A stretch of 46,286 nt of DNA, taken from assembly GCA_035556555.1 (NCBI GenBank), contig DATMES010000069.1, positions 1 through 46,286 of the forward strand, written 5' to 3'. This document shows positions 25,709 to 30,472 of the stretch, piece after piece. This DNA is from Frankiaceae bacterium. GTDB lineage: Bacteria; Actinomycetota; Actinomycetes; BP-191. The notes below the pieces were generated by a model that saw only the letters and a list, made by a program, of their open reading frames with translations, was not told where the DNA came from and ran no database searches. The translations under genes were made by a program, and so were the position numbers. The stretch's first letter is position 1, and each line of letters opens with the position of its first letter.

Positions 25709-25879
25709 ATGAAGCGCACCCTGCACCTCCGTACCGAGGTGCTCAGCGAGCTCACGACCGACGAGCTGCAGAACGTCGCTGGCGGCGACGGCACCACGTA
25801 CGCCTGCTCGCGCTACGAGTGCCCGACGCTCGACCACTGCGTTCCGACGCTGCCGCTGAACGTCTGCGTCACCAAGTAG
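25709..25879 (+). CDS. RiPP-precursor-like peptide 1, 56 residues
   Basis: The leader MKRTLHLRTEVLSELTTDEL then QNVAGG ends in a double glycine. The core of 30 residues has four cysteines (YACSRYECP, HCVP, NVCVTK) and the motif LPLNVC that recurs in precursors 5 and 6. The LxLR.E.L..LT..EL..VAGG layout is that of class I lanthipeptide-type leaders recognised by RRE-containing enzymes and cut after GG (family knowledge). The gene stands alone, with GAGGAG upstream, and is followed by a strong bidirectional hairpin. No modification enzyme is nearby. Confidence 0.8.
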   Translation: MKRTLHLRTEVLSELTTDELQNVAGGDGTTYACSRYECPTLDHCVPTLPLNVCVTK

Positions 25880-25888
25880 CACGCGAAC

Positions 25889-25928
25889 GAACGGCCCGCG
25901 CCCCGCAAGCAGGGGACGCGGGCCGTTC
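25889..25928. terminator. bidirectional terminator hairpin
   Basis: GAACGGCCCGCG (25889-25900) and CGCGGGCCGTTC (25917-25928) pair perfectly over 12 bp; the loop itself can pair CCCC with GGGG. It lies between the convergent genes ending at 25879 and 25939. Confidence 0.75.
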
Positions 25929-25938
25929 GACGTCCCGG

Positions 25939-28020
25939 TTACGCCAAGACGAGCGGCGGCGCGCTGCCGTCGAGCGTGAACCCGAACGAGTACGTGCTCG
26001 GCGCGGCGCCGTCGACGCGCAGGTACCACGTGCCGGCCCGGTCGAGCGTCGCGGTGACGGACGGCGAGCTGAGGTACGCCAGCGAGCACGACGAGCCCGC
26101 GAACGCCACCCCGTCGGGCCCGACGAGCGTGAAGCAGGCGTTGCCGCCGCTGTGCTCGAGCTGGAACGTGTCCCCGGCCGCGCCGGAGAAGGCGAACCAG
26201 TCGTACGTGTCGTCCCCGCCGTAGCGGATGCCGTCGTAGACCCAGCCAGGCATCAGGACCGGTGCCCCGGCGGGCGTCTCGGGGGCGTCGGCGCCGCTGC
26301 TCGCGTCGTCGTGCACGAACACGGAGGCGAGTGGCGGGCCGCTCGTCGCGCTTTCGGGGCCCCACAGCGCGGTGCGCAGTGCCCGGTCGCGGGCGAACCA
26401 CTCGGTCGTCTCCGGCCGCGGCGCGGGGCCGCTGCCGGCGAGCAGCCTCGTGGACGCCGCGTCGAGCGCGTCCTGGTCGACGAGGCCGTACCCCTGCTCG
26501 GCGAGCGTCACCGGGGAGGCCGGCATGGGGTCGTTGCCCGCGCGCGGGACGGGCATGGCCGCGTGCAGCAGGTGGTCGAGCACCGCCGTACGGTCCGCGG
26601 CCGAGCCGGCGCGGCGGCCGGCGAGGAGCACGTGGGCGAAGTGCCCGGCGAGGTTCGCCGGGTACGCGGTGACGTCGGTCGCCGCGGGCATCGCGGTCAG
26701 CGAGTCGTGCGCGGGTGCGAACGTCGTCGCCGCGACCGCGTCCACCGGCACGCAGTGCGCGGGCGCGGCGGACGGCCGCATGCCTACGCGGGTGACCCAC
26801 GCGGGCCCGGCGTAGGCGTCGGTGTGCGTGCTGCACGCCGAAGGGACGAGGGCGGTGAAGACGCGGTTCGCCGGAACGATGACCGGCTTGCCGCTCGCCG
26901 CGGCCTCGCGGGTGGCCCACTCGATGCCGTCGCGCGTCCCTGTCGGGCTGGTCGTGATGAACGGCGCGTTCGCGGCGAACCCTGCGCTCATGACGACCGC
27001 GTCGATCCACGGCTGCCTGGCGACCCAGCGCACCGCTTCGGGGTACGTCGTCACGTCGGCCTCCACCGCGACGACGAGGACGTTCCCGTCGGCCGCACCG
27101 GTGCCGGAGCCCGCCGCGAGGCCGGCGCTGGCGCTGCCGTACCCCGTGTCGTCGATGACCGGACGGTCCGGCAGCGACGGCTCGTCGGCGGTCGGGCGGC
27201 TGAAGCTGATGCCACCGACGACGCGCGTGCCGGGGAACGTGTAGAGGCGCTCGTCGAACGTGTCCGACACGGGGTCGTACGTGCTGCGCGCCAGCGTGTT
27301 CAGCGTCGGCGCGTCGGCCGCGGCGGCGGTGGCGTAGTCGGGCGCGCCGAGCGACAGCGCGACCGGCGAGGCGCTCGCGGGGAAGCCGGACAGCCAGCCG
27401 CTCGGGTGCGCGGTGAGCGCCGGGGCGCGGAGGAACTCGTGGTACGGGTTGACGCCGGTGTCGACGACCGCGACGACGACGTGCTCGCCCGTGGTCGTCG
27501 CGGGGCCGACCGGCGGCACGACGAGCGAGGGGAGCGGCGCCACGGGCGAAGTGGACAGCAGGCCCACCGGCGCGGGGCTCGGCGCCGGCTCGCCGACGCC
27601 CACGGAGAACCGGTACGCGTCGGGCTGGAGCGCGCTGACCTGGACGTAGTACGTCCCCGCCGCCGTCGCGACGGCGGTGGCCAGCGAGGTGGACTCGGCG
27701 GCGACGCCGCAGGAGTACGCGAGCTCGGCGCCGGCGGCGTTCGCCAGGCGGACGCAGGAGAACGCGCCCGAGCCGCGCGCCTCGAGCGTCGCGCCGGCCG
27801 GAGCGGAGAACGCGTACCAGTCGGCCTTGTCGAGGACGTAGCCGTCGACGGTGCCCGAGTAGACACGGCCCGGCTCGACGCGGAACGTCGGCGTCGGGAC
27901 GCCGGGCGCGTCGCGGCCGGTGCCGGCGTCGTTCTGCGGCAGCGGCGCCGCCGACGCGGGCGATGCGACGGTGAGCGGCAGCAGTGCCGCGAGCAGGACG
28001 GAACAGAGAGCGGAGCGCAC
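25939..28020 (-). CDS. exported degenerate subtilase with pre-peptidase domains
   Basis: This 693-residue protein has a signal peptide (about 1-24), an N-terminal PPC-like beta domain (about 46-142, VYSGTVDGYVLDKADWYAFS), an S8-like central region (about 178-480) and a second PPC-like domain (about 600-690, YDWFAFSGAAGDTFQLEHSG). The catalytic Asp is present (D187, VVAVVDTGVNPYHEF). The GHGT..AG histidine motif reads GYGSASAG (H to Y294), and no GTS motif is found where TDVTAYPANLAG stands. It is therefore probably not a protease. GTG 28020 has GGGGGGAA upstream. Its role, perhaps binding peptides or other exported proteins, is unknown. Confidence 0.8.
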   Translation of the reverse strand: MRSALCSVLLAALLPLTVASPASAAPLPQNDAGTGRDAPGVPTPTFRVEPGRVYSGTVDGYVLDKADWYAFSAPAGATLEARGSGAFSCVRLANAAGAELAYSCGVAAESTSLATAVATAAGTYYVQVSALQPDAYRFSVGVGEPAPSPAPVGLLSTSPVAPLPSLVVPPVGPATTTGEHVVVAVVDTGVNPYHEFLRAPALTAHPSGWLSGFPASASPVALSLGAPDYATAAAADAPTLNTLARSTYDPVSDTFDERLYTFPGTRVVGGISFSRPTADEPSLPDRPVIDDTGYGSASAGLAAGSGTGAADGNVLVVAVEADVTTYPEAVRWVARQPWIDAVVMSAGFAANAPFITTSPTGTRDGIEWATREAAASGKPVIVPANRVFTALVPSACSTHTDAYAGPAWVTRVGMRPSAAPAHCVPVDAVAATTFAPAHDSLTAMPAATDVTAYPANLAGHFAHVLLAGRRAGSAADRTAVLDHLLHAAMPVPRAGNDPMPASPVTLAEQGYGLVDQDALDAASTRLLAGSGPAPRPETTEWFARDRALRTALWGPESATSGPPLASVFVHDDASSGADAPETPAGAPVLMPGWVYDGIRYGGDDTYDWFAFSGAAGDTFQLEHSGGNACFTLVGPDGVAFAGSSCSLAYLSSPSVTATLDRAGTWYLRVDGAAPSTYSFGFTLDGSAPPLVLA

Positions 28021-28113
28021 GAGTGGATTCCCCCCACACGGTAGGACGCGGCGCGGCGCGCCGCGCGTGAGGTGACGAGGTTTCGACGTCGGCGCCGCGC
28101 GGACCTTCCGGCG

Positions 28114-28464
28114 TCAGCGGCAGCGCAGCGTGATGCGCGCGCGGTCCTTCCAGTACTCGTGCCCGCGGAGCAGCCCGACCGTGATCGAGAACGTCCCGCG
28201 CACGTTCCTCGGGCAGTAGAGGCGGATCCGGAACGGCATCCGCACCGGCCGCTCAGGGTCGGTCCACGACGAGCCATCCATCTGGATCGGGTACAGCGGG
28301 TTGCCGTGCTCGTCACGGTCGTCGCTGCGCCCGAGGACCGTCGGGTACGTCACCGACGTCGCGAGGAAGCGCCCGACCGCGTCGACCGCCCGGCGCGTGA
28401 CCGCGGCGAACCGGTCGCGTGCCGCGACGGGACTTGCCGCGTCGACGCGAACCGCGCAGAGCAT
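28114..28464 (-). CDS. unknown protein, 116 residues
   Basis: I do not recognise this protein. It begins MLCAVRVDAASPVAARDRFA, has no clear signal peptide, and ends RGTFSITVGLLRGHEYWKDR with a few more residues and a final CR. Two cysteines near the C-terminus (LYCPRN and LRCR) flank a strand-rich segment. ATG 28464 is chosen over 28491 because GGAGGGGG lies just upstream. It is divergent from the precursor array and lies between it and the degenerate subtilase, so it may belong to the same locus. Confidence 0.65.
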   Translation of the reverse strand: MLCAVRVDAASPVAARDRFAAVTRRAVDAVGRFLATSVTYPTVLGRSDDRDEHGNPLYPIQMDGSSWTDPERPVRMPFRIRLYCPRNVRGTFSITVGLLRGHEYWKDRARITLRCR

Positions 28465-28534
28465 CGCGTCACCCCCTCCACCGCCGTTCAACGAGCGGTG
28501 CGGCTCCGGGGCACGCCCTCGAGGCGTACGTCGC

Positions 28535-28574
28535 TATCCTCGGGGCATACCCCTCAAGACGGAGGAACCCCTAC
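28535..28574 (+). promoter_or_regulatory. promoter of the precursor array
   Basis: TATCCT (28535-28540) is a likely -10 box, followed by a perfect GGGG-CATA-CCCC palindrome (28542-28553) over the expected start of transcription. GGAGG (28561-28565) is the ribosome binding site for ATG 28575. The palindrome could be an operator. Confidence 0.5.
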
Positions 28575-28790
28575 ATGAAGCGCACGCTCTCCCTCAGGCG
28601 TGAGTCCCTCACGGCGCTGACGACCGACGAGCTGTCGATGCTCGTCGCGGCGGGCGAAGGCGACCCGCAGCCCACCCCGCCGTGGTACGCCCCGACGTCC
28701 CCGGTGAAGGACTGCCTGGCGACGACGCAGAACTCCATGGTCGTCTGCTCCGGCGACTGCATGACCCGCGGCACCACCTGCGCCTGCTGA
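28575..28790 (+). CDS. RiPP-precursor-like peptide 2, 71 residues
   Basis: The leader MKRTLSLRRESLTALTTDEL is followed by SMLVAAGEGD rather than VAGG, so the cleavage site is variant. The core is Pro/Thr-rich (PQPTPPWYAPTSPVK) and ends with five cysteines in DCLATTQ, VVCSGDC and GTTCAC. It is the first gene of a five-gene tandem array transcribed from the promoter at 28535. The next gene starts 24 bp downstream. No homolog with a known product is recalled. Confidence 0.8.
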   Translation: MKRTLSLRRESLTALTTDELSMLVAAGEGDPQPTPPWYAPTSPVKDCLATTQNSMVVCSGDCMTRGTTCAC

Positions 28791-28814
28791 CCCTACGAAA
28801 ACGGAGACCCAGCC

Positions 28815-28988
28815 ATGAAGCGCACCCTGAAGCTCGAGCGCGAGACCGTCACCGACCTCACGACCGAGGAGCTGACCGCCATCGCGGGCGGCATCCCGAC
28901 GTTCGAGGGGCCCGTCTGCTACGTCGTCAACGACACCCAGGCGCGGTGCACGGCGACCATCATCCAGGCGCACTGCAACACGGTCTGA
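28815..28988 (+). CDS. RiPP-precursor-like peptide 3, 57 residues
   Basis: The leader MKRTLKLERETVTDLTTEEL then TAIAGG ends in a canonical double glycine after residue 26. The 31-residue core IPTFEGPVCYVVNDTQARCT and its remainder contain three cysteines (C35, C45, C54) and several Thr. Codon use matches the chromosome, so the array is long resident. It sits 24 bp after peptide 2 and 11 bp before peptide 4. Confidence 0.8.
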   Translation: MKRTLKLERETVTDLTTEELTAIAGGIPTFEGPVCYVVNDTQARCTATIIQAHCNTV

Positions 28989-28999
28989 GAGGCGGCCCC

Positions 29000-29173
29000 G
29001 TGAAGCGCACGCTCTCCCTGAAGCGCGAGGCGCTCGCCTCGCTCACCACCGACGAGCTCGCCGAGGTCCAGGGCGCGGCGATCCCGACGCTGCTCGGGGT
29101 CTGCCAGTGGACCCAGCCGTCGAGCCCCATCAACTGCGTCACCGAGCACACCGTCTGCCTCTGCCGGCAGTAA
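29000..29173 (+). CDS. RiPP-precursor-like peptide 4, 57 residues
   Basis: The leader MKRTLSLKREALASLTTDEL is followed by AEVQGAA, a variant of the usual VAGG. The core IPTLLGVCQWTQPSSPINCV then TEHTVCLCRQ has four cysteines. Start is GTG 29000 with GAGAGG upstream. The last bases of this gene (CTCTGCCGGCAGTAA) are found again at 29349-29365 beyond peptide 5, which marks a tandem duplication. Confidence 0.8.
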   Translation: MKRTLSLKREALASLTTDELAEVQGAAIPTLLGVCQWTQPSSPINCVTEHTVCLCRQ

Positions 29174-29190
29174 CCCTCGAGGAGTCCCTC

Positions 29191-29346
29191 ATGAAGCGCC
29201 TCACCCTGAAGAGCGAGACCCTCAGCGAGCTCACGGCCGACGAGCTCACCGGAGTCGCCGGCGGCGTGCTGCCGACGCTCCCGCTCGACGTCTGCCTCGA
29301 CGAGCTGCTGCACACCAACCGCCCGACCCAGTGCCTCTGCCCGTAG
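29191..29346 (+). CDS. RiPP-precursor-like peptide 5, 51 residues
   Basis: The leader MKRLTLKSETLSELTADELT then GVAGG is one residue shorter than the others at the start. The core VLPTLPLDVCLDELLHTNRP ends TQCLCP and has three cysteines. It is almost identical in its leader to peptide 6, and both cores begin VLPT.PLDVCLD, so the two arose by duplication. CTCGAGGAG lies upstream of ATG 29191. Confidence 0.82.
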   Translation: MKRLTLKSETLSELTADELTGVAGGVLPTLPLDVCLDELLHTNRPTQCLCP

Positions 29347-29348
29347 GA

Positions 29349-29384
29349 CTCTGCCGGCAGTAACCCACCCCTCGAGGAGAACTT
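29349..29384 (+). repeat. duplicated 3' end of peptide 4
   Basis: CTCTGCCGGCAGTAACCC here copies the last codons, stop and spacer of peptide 4 (29158-29175), followed in both places by CTCGAGGAG. This untranslated remnant shows that a unit of about 190 bp, including peptide 5, was duplicated to give peptide 6. Confidence 0.75.
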
Positions 29385-29528
29385 GTGAAGCGCCTCACCC
29401 TCAAGAGCGAGACCCTCGCCGAGCTCACGGCCGACGAGCTCACGGCGGTCGCCGGCGGCGTGCTGCCGACGACCCCGCTCGACGTCTGCCTCGACACCCT
29501 CCAGGCGACGCGCTGCTTCTGCCCGTGA
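29385..29528 (+). CDS. RiPP-precursor-like peptide 6, 47 residues
   Basis: Starting at GTG 29385 (CTCGAGGAG upstream), the leader KRLTLKSETLAELTADELTA ends VAGG. The core VLPTTPLDVCLDTLQATRCF then CP is 22 residues with three cysteines, shorter than its sister peptide 5 by four residues in the middle. It is the last gene of the plus-strand array; the inverted-repeat element at 29533 follows within 5 bp. Confidence 0.82.
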   Translation: MKRLTLKSETLAELTADELTAVAGGVLPTTPLDVCLDTLQATRCFCP

Positions 29529-29532
29529 CCCT

Positions 29533-29700
29533 CTAGGAGGGTTCTGCGCAACCCCGCCCTGGCTGAACCGGGGCGGTCAGACGACGACCGGCGGCGCGGT
29601 CGCCCGCGGGCGACAACCAGCCCGCAGGCTCCCTGCGGCCTTGCCGGATCGCCGCCTGGATCTCGGCTCGCGACGGGCAGGGCTTCGCGGAACCCTCCTA
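29533..29700. repeat. 168-bp inverted-repeat element between convergent precursor genes
   Basis: TAGGAGGGTTC (29534-29544) and GAACCCTCCTA (29690-29700) are perfect inverted ends, with weaker pairing continuing inward (CCCGCCCTG against CGGGCAGGG). The right end supplies the TAG stop of the minus-strand gene at 29698. The left end resembles that of the element at 22174. No gene is seen inside. Confidence 0.55.
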
Positions 29701-29880
29701 ACTCGTCGGCGGGCAGTACAGCGTCGCCGTGAGGATCGTGAAGATCGGCCCGAGGAACTTCGTGTCGAACGGCGGCCCGCAGTGGTCGCCGATCGTGTAG
29801 TCGCCGCCGCGGACCGCGTTGAGGTCGGCGGGGGTGAGCTCGGTCAGCGCCTCACGGCGCAGGTGCAGGCTTCGCTTCAA
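29698..29880 (-). CDS. RiPP-precursor-like peptide 7, 60 residues (TTG start)
   Basis: The leader LKRSLHLRREALTELTPADL then NAVRGG matches the array, and reading the TTG at 29880 as start restores the MKR beginning seen in all the others. AGGATGA lies 7 bp before it. The ATG at 29889 would add three residues with a badly placed ribosome binding site. The core DYTIGDHCGPPFDTKFLGPI and its remainder contain only two cysteines and several Thr. It is on the opposite strand, convergent with peptide 6. Confidence 0.75.
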   Translation of the reverse strand: MKRSLHLRREALTELTPADLNAVRGGDYTIGDHCGPPFDTKFLGPIFTILTATLYCPPTS

Positions 29881-29945: not shown

Positions 29946-30167
29946 CTACTTGACGACCGGGCCGACGCACTGCGCGGTGTTGGAGTCGTGGAACAGGTCC
30001 ACCCACACGAGGCAGTCGCGGGTCCAGCAGTCGGTCGGGCAGACCCGGCCGCTGCACTCGAGGTCGACGACCCCGCCGCAGTCACGCCAGTAGTGGTCGG
30101 CGTGGGCGGCGGCGGTCGGCACCGCGAACGCGGCGGTGATCATGGTGGCGGCGAGCAGACGGCGCAT
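29946..30167 (-). CDS. exported six-cysteine peptide A, 73 residues
   Basis: A signal peptide (MRRLLAATMITAAFAVPTAA then AHA) is followed by a mature peptide of about 50 residues. Its conserved pattern is CGGV-D-EC-G-VCP-DC-----CLVW-D-FH----AQCV, shared with the gene at 30263. Six cysteines would give three disulfides. It is not a relative of the MKR-leader peptides but lies directly after one of them on the same strand (65 bp). AGGAG precedes ATG 30167. Function unknown; a defensin-like or inhibitor-like fold is a guess. Confidence 0.75.
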   Translation of the reverse strand: MRRLLAATMITAAFAVPTAAAHADHYWRDCGGVVDLECSGRVCPTDCWTRDCLVWVDLFHDSNTAQCVGPVVK

Positions 30168-30262
30168 GAAGAGCACTCCTGGTGATCGGGGGTGACGGCG
30201 GCGCGGGGCTGCGCCGCCGGGTCGTGCGAAAACGCGGCGAGGGAGCCGCGTCGTTCAGGGGG

Positions 30263-30472
30263 CTACCGGTCGACGCACTGCGCGGTGAACGGGCTGTGGA
30301 ACGGGTCCAGCCAGACCAGGCACTCGCGCGGGAAGCAGTCCATCGGGCAGACGGTGCCGTTGCACTCGTAGTCGAGGACCCCACCGCACGTACGGTCGTA
30401 CGGCTCGGGACCGGCGGAGGCGGGGGCGGCGAACGCGGCGGCGACGGCCGCGGCGGCGAGGAGACGACGCAT
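30263..30472 (-). CDS. exported six-cysteine peptide B, 69 residues
   Basis: This paralog of peptide A has a signal peptide (MRRLLAAAAVAAAFAAPASA) and the mature pattern TCGGVLDYECNGTVCPMDC followed by CLVWLDPFH and TAQCV. All six cysteines and the W and FH positions agree with peptide A, while the rest differs, so selection keeps the fold. GGAGAAA lies upstream of ATG 30472. The two genes are 95 bp apart in the same direction and probably come from a tandem duplication. Confidence 0.75.
   Translation of the reverse strand: MRRLLAAAAVAAAFAAPASAGPEPYDRTCGGVLDYECNGTVCPMDCFPRECLVWLDPFHSPFTAQCVDR

Follow-up and report, generated by a model that had tools for sequence, protein, structure and literature searches.

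The closest described counterparts of the genes considered here are the prochlorosins and synechococsins of Prochlorococcus and Synechococcus, in which the class II LanM enzymes ProcM (about 30 substrates) and SyncM (79) act on precursors whose genes are dispersed through the genome (PMC10783134, PMC12328550). The larger figure refers to the putative precursors of SyncM from MIT9509 (PMC10783134, PMC12328550). SyncM is singled out for the greatest flexibility in a review of promiscuous lanthipeptide enzymes from 2025 (PMC12328550). Cyclases of the ProcM type have been described as Cys-Cys-Cys and more reactive (PMC11251773). Clustering of lanthipeptide precursors with their enzymes is usual, not required, prochlorosin genes being often distant from their own LanM; a large lanthipeptide survey that looked only within seven genes of LanC missed distant prochlorosin precursors for that reason (PMC7268733). 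The present analysis concerns seven short genes that resemble precursors of ribosomally synthesized and post-translationally modified peptides (RiPPs). They lie in a 46,286-nt stretch of a Frankiaceae genome (GCA_035556555.1), referred to below as the window, which is contig C69 of a 3.98-Mb assembly of 71 contigs.

From comparisons of sequence, the seven genes are very probably part of a class I lanthipeptide precursor family of about 60 members, predicted to be matured in trans by a LanB and a LanC encoded on another contig, C2, and exported by the LanT of the same operon.

Precursor genes and their shared leader

All seven genes are open frames. Precursor 1 is a single gene on the plus strand (25709-25879) that starts with ATG and encodes the leader MKRTLHLRTEVLSELTTDELQNVAGG and the core DGTTYACSRYECPTLDHCVPTLPLNVCVTK, with four Cys and six Ser/Thr; its leader hidden Markov model (HMM) score is E = 2e-14. 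Precursors 2 to 6 stand in tandem on the plus strand at 28575-29528, separated by gaps of 24, 11, 17 and 38 nt. The set is opened by precursor 2 (28575-28790, ATG), with the leader MKRTLSLRRESLTALTTDELSMLVAA(G) and a core containing five Cys (leader HMM, E = 1e-11). It is followed by precursor 3 (28815-28988, ATG; leader MKRTLKLERETVTDLTTEELTAIAGG, core IPTFEGPVCYVVNDTQARCTATIIQAHCNTV, three Cys), precursor 4 (29000-29173, GTG; leader VKRTLSLKREALASLTTDELAEVQGA, core AIPTLLGVCQWTQPSSPINCVTEHTVCLCRQ, four Cys), precursor 5 (29191-29346, ATG; leader MKRLTLKSETLSELTADELTGVAGG, core VLPTLPLDVCLDELLHTNRPTQCLCP, three Cys) and precursor 6 (29385-29528, GTG; leader VKRLTLKSETLAELTADELTAVAGG, core VLPTTPLDVCLDTLQATRCFCP, three Cys), of which precursor 5 is a recent duplicate. 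Precursor 7, on the minus strand at 29698-29880, is convergent with the tandem genes and has a TTG start, the leader LKRSLHLRREALTELTPADLNAVRGG and the core DYTIGDHCGPPFDTKFLGPIFTILTATLYCPPTS with two Cys. The original prediction of five tandem genes, one alone and one convergent with a TTG start, with a common leader and differing cores of two to five Cys, thus describes the locus accurately. No RNA families or tRNAs were found in the window.

The shared leader has 25-26 residues and follows the pattern MKR(T)L.L..E.L..LT..EL..V.GG/GA. Its end had been described as mostly GG or a near variant, and in the window it is GG in five genes, GA in one and LVAAGEG in the 28575 gene. Against the leader HMM the seven genes score at E of about 1e-11 to 1e-14. 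Searches with the precursor profile found no member in 57 other genomes of the class, 13 of which have other LanB-type proteins, and none in a phylum-wide sample of 395 further genomes, where the best 16 candidates per genome were scored, sufficient for presence. Given these E-values and the empty searches, the family is not a product of chance.

When RiPP leader families were searched, the match was to NCBIfam NF038153, 'class I lanthipeptide leader L1a', which we take to be the pinensin-like leader type. Precursor 6 passes the curated cut-off of this model (22.5 vs 22 bits). Four other window genes score 15.5-20.9 bits, the highest being precursor 3, and the 25709 gene scores 14.1 bits; the 28575 gene gave no match. 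In the two sister genomes of the genus, G001 and G002, the model matches at E <= 1 in 24 and 39 places, respectively, and fourteen exceed the cut-off. Taken together, these scores support the class I lanthipeptide-type leader that had been proposed.

Candidate enzymes on a second contig

No modifying enzyme or exporter is encoded in the window, as had been reported. The statement does not extend to the genome, in which LanB, LanC and an exporter with a C39 peptidase are all encoded on contig C2. The operon there runs in the order LanC (L026:7491-8714, L026 being a region of C2), LanB (L026:8702-11719), a membrane-like 143-aa protein with one hydrophobic stretch (orf143, L026:11716-12147) and the C39-peptidase ATP-binding cassette (ABC) transporter LanT (L026:12147-14345). 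LanB is full length, with Lant_dehydr_N and Lant_dehydr_C; its Lant_dehydr_N match (C2:198818-200728, E = 5e-158) marks it as the sole such protein in the genome, and the C39 peptidase of LanT is likewise the only one. The genus-conserved orf143 gave no significant match to Pfam.

The residues expected of active enzymes are in place. In a phmmer alignment with NisB (4wd9), LanB keeps R83, R87, R786, R826, H961 and R966, which we take to be the NisB active-site residues. LanC is a stand-alone protein that aligns to NisC across AHG, AWCYG and CHG, the Cys-Cys-His zinc ligands, and the C39 domain of LanT retains the Cys, His and Asp of the LahT/PCAT1 proteases. Alignment with solved LanB, LanC and C39 proteins is enough to assign all three to their families.

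On either side of the operon lie precursors that share this leader, at C2:197239, 197412, 204526, 204773 and 204963. A class I-type leader joined to a core with Ser, Thr and Cys is thus found clustered with lanB and lanC at C2:197239 and 197412, and the window genes, which have the same make-up, lie on a different contig. The LanC-LanB-orf143-LanT operon also occurs in both sister genomes with precursors alongside, LanB being 64-66% and LanC 58% identical. In G002, a lone LanB and a lone LanC stand against 54 precursors. The LanB-orf143-LanT part is present a second time in G001, at a contig end, and this copy may stem from the 7% contamination of that genome.

Of the two explanations originally offered for the missing enzymes, action in trans is the one supported, by the complete LanC-LanB-LanT set on C2 and the same-leader precursors adjoining it. 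With a class I dehydratase, a cyclase and a double-glycine exporter all in the genome, trans-acting enzymes are the economical reading. The other explanation, a different chemistry, was rejected: no YcaO was found in the three genus genomes, so that the enzyme of a YcaO-type azol(in)e RiPP is lacking, and with LanB and LanC present no other chemistry is needed; radical SAM enzymes were not searched for genome-wide.

The proposed maturation would begin with docking of each precursor on the single C2 LanB through the shared leader L.L..E.L..LT..EL..V.GG/GA. LanB would then dehydrate Ser and Thr of the core with glutamyl-tRNA as donor, and the LanC of the adjoining gene would add core Cys to the dehydro residues to give (methyl)lanthionine rings. 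Finally, the N-terminal C39 protease of LanT is predicted to cut after GG/GA as the transporter exports the product. Because specificity would reside in the leader, cores could diverge freely and precursor genes could duplicate and scatter.

Several other genes lie close to these loci. The minus strand at 25939-28020, between precursor 1 and the tandem set, encodes a 693-aa protein that looks secreted, has PPC domains and matches subtilases below the Pfam cut-off. As a LanP it is a weak candidate (its Peptidase_S8 match is the one below cut-off), and none is needed given the C39 exporter. At about 3.2-4.7 kb of the window, the plus strand encodes a subtilase-like protein whose C-terminal tail is made up of NSW(S/R)(A) repeats. 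Next to the precursors, a pair of small paralogs rich in Cys, each with an apparent signal peptide (29946-30176 and 30263-30472, both minus strand), have no Pfam match and fall outside the lanthipeptide leader family. Beside the C2 operon, L026:557-6895 (minus strand) encodes a 2112-aa protein of RHS repeats whose C-terminal domain is a ribonuclease, a layout like that of polymorphic toxins.

Family size, core divergence and alternative readings

A search of the genome with one window precursor returned 52 places. A profile built from 22 precursors raised this to 60 genes, with 27 in G001 and 54 in G002. The description of seven genes without an enzyme therefore holds in the window only; the genome family numbers 60, and its members nearest the enzymes carry the same leader. 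The 60 genes are distributed over 18 contigs (17 on C1, seven on C69, the window, five each on C2, C27 and C42, and fewer elsewhere), which by a 150-nt gap rule implies about 37 transcription units. Among the genomes searched, an expansion to 27-60 precursors is confined to this genus.

Across the 141 precursors of the three genomes, mean pairwise identity is 57% in the leader and 27% in the core, with 23% for core against shuffled core. All 141 cores differ from one another. They are 20-52 residues long and contain 13.8% Thr and 12.1% Cys; each contains Cys, and Ser/Thr equal or outnumber Cys in every one. The Cys number is odd (3, 5 or 7) in 54 of them. Mean net charge is -0.9 and just 11 of the 141 are positive; neutral or slightly acidic cores, unlike the cationic nisin-type antibiotics, hint at another role.

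Close duplicates indicate how the cores change. The proportion of nonsynonymous differences (pN) is 0.06 in the leader and 0.20 in the core for 29191/29385, 0.02 and 0.25 for 11854/12035 on C76 of G001, and 0.04 and 0.28 for 109601/110171 on C64 of G002; the synonymous proportion (pS) is similar or low. Pooled pN/pS (0.70 for leaders, 0.86 for cores) is not decisive, as pairs were picked by core identity, and the close duplicates alone are informative. Some cores have recognizable partners across genomes (for example, C24:7592 with C39:5686 of G002, or the THAGC set on C1 with C35 of G002). Many others, five of the seven window cores among them, lack a cross-genome partner clearly exceeding the shuffled control, and the window genes 25709 and 28575 have weak partners in G001.

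A de novo motif search 5' of the precursors yielded models of low information, the 7-mer CCCCTAC being the one exception. Of the 141 precursors, 19 have it no more than 45 nt upstream of their start (about 0.3 expected), usually directly 5' of the ribosome-binding site (RBS); in the window it lies at 28568-28574, immediately 5' of the precursor 2 ATG. Since several of its other occurrences precede signal-peptide-like genes, CCCCTAC may be part of a promoter or 5' leader that marks genes for secreted products.

Class II bacteriocins require no more than a GG/GA leader and a C39 exporter, and both are present. The genes might accordingly encode unmodified double-glycine bacteriocins or pheromones, handled by the C39 exporter only and with their Cys in disulfides, LanB and LanC serving just the adjoining precursors. 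The 25709 gene passes the bacteriocin model TIGR01847 (16.2 vs 15.7 bits), the only curated bacteriocin model to reach its cut-off, and the other bacteriocin GG-leader models give weak, sub-threshold matches. Nevertheless, LanB and LanC share the operon of the exporter, the precursors beside LanB and those on other contigs belong to one leader family, and most members are best matched by the leader model for class I lanthipeptide L1a. The cores are strongly enriched in both Thr and Cys, Ser/Thr never falling below Cys, and odd Cys numbers suit thioethers better than intramolecular disulfides. Unmodified products are thus very unlikely. That most scattered copies are relics of past duplications, neither expressed nor matured, is likewise very unlikely. 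The copy number is high and varies between sister genomes (27-60), and a few copies are truncated at contig ends; nevertheless, frames are intact, RBS-like sequence precedes 117 of the 141 genes (vs 18% of random sites), and close duplicates keep the leader while the core changes. The assigned start codon is other than ATG, GTG or TTG in three of the 141.

A division of labour among enzymes is less improbable, though still unlikely. Here no single pair would have some 60 substrates, and a second LanC or a LanKC locus would handle some precursors. The second stand-alone LanC (C1:35281; L027:17162-18427) has intact CYG/CHG zinc motifs, no LanB beside it and a divergent precursor at C1:35035. The class III-type locus (C1:75.6-83.3 kb; L028:15641-18430 and following genes) encodes LanKC, a protein with RamC_N, kinase and LanC domains, and alongside it a further LanC-like frame and a pair of ABC transporters. 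On the other side, there is no second LanB, so dehydration rests on one LanB unless LanKC accepts the leader, and in G002 as many as 54 precursors are retained alongside a single LanB and a single LanC, LanKC being absent. No LanKC was found in either sister genome, and each has one LanC, so that LanKC is not the general partner and the C2-type operon is the common denominator.

Maturation in trans by the C2 enzymes has some evidence to contend with. Most window leaders fall slightly below the NF038153 cut-off, and the second LanC and the LanKC locus could serve some precursors. The contigs are unjoined, so the distance between precursors and LanB is known only as 'other contigs', and a few of the 60 genes may be damaged, the copy on C48 running off its contig. 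At the level of sequence, the gene families, the operon, the conservation of active-site residues, the leader family, the copy numbers and the co-occurrence are established. The best reading of them is a lanthipeptide system of class I whose precursors are dispersed as in the prochlorosins and are matured by a single LanB/LanC pair of relaxed specificity.

Comparison with known lanthipeptide systems

To our knowledge, natural lanthipeptide systems of one enzyme and many substrates are class II only (ProcM, SyncM). No class I system of the dispersed, many-precursor kind was found in the full-text literature searched, in which subscription journals are thinly covered. We consider it reasonably probable that one LanB/LanC pair with a Cys-Cys-His cyclase matures 50-60 unrelated cores genome-wide, as a class I equivalent of the prochlorosins, and that the neutral or acidic products have a role other than nisin-like pore formation. 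If so, the dispersed design would have evolved on two or more occasions, around dehydratases that are unrelated. A G002-type case, in which 54 precursors face one LanB and one LanC, would be a test of whether relaxed specificity depends on a Cys-Cys-Cys cyclase, and about 140 natural, sequence-diverse substrates would be available for engineering. Most such precursors would escape cluster-based mining that is confined to the near neighborhood of LanC (in PMC7268733, seven genes).

Class I lanthipeptides with the NF038153 L1a leader share with this family the leader profile match and the LanB and LanC enzymes. They differ in number. In a scan of named genomes, from which the source genus was excluded, LanB relatives were 28-49% identical and came mainly from Acidobacteriota metagenome-assembled genomes (MAGs). 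One Holophagales MAG (L082-L087), with a LanB 42% identical, carries about nine genes that match the L1a leader weakly, spread over several contigs, and may hold a smaller dispersed precursor set; six other genomes of the 297 in its phylum have one to three each, compared with 27-60 in the present genus. Nisin is alike in its two-enzyme chemistry, as judged from the NisB catalytic residues and NisC zinc ligands conserved here. However, it has one dedicated in-cluster precursor where many dispersed ones occur here, a separate LanP protease where C39 is fused to the exporter, and a cationic product.

The prochlorosins and synechococsins are closest in architecture, with tens of precursors, one conserved leader ending in GG and hypervariable cores, the genes being both tandem and single across the genome; the one synthetase there corresponds to one LanB here. 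The enzymology is unlike, LanM there and LanB with LanC here (class I, tRNA-dependent), as are the leader, Nif11-type there and short L1a-type here, and the cyclase, Cys-Cys-Cys there (PMC11251773) and Cys-Cys-His here. Neither a ProcM-like LanM nor a Nif11-type leader was found, the only LanC-like proteins of the genome being two stand-alone LanC, one kinase-type LanKC and the LanKC neighbor. With only stand-alone LanC and LanKC proteins and an L1a leader profile, the system appears to work like the prochlorosins without being a member of that family.

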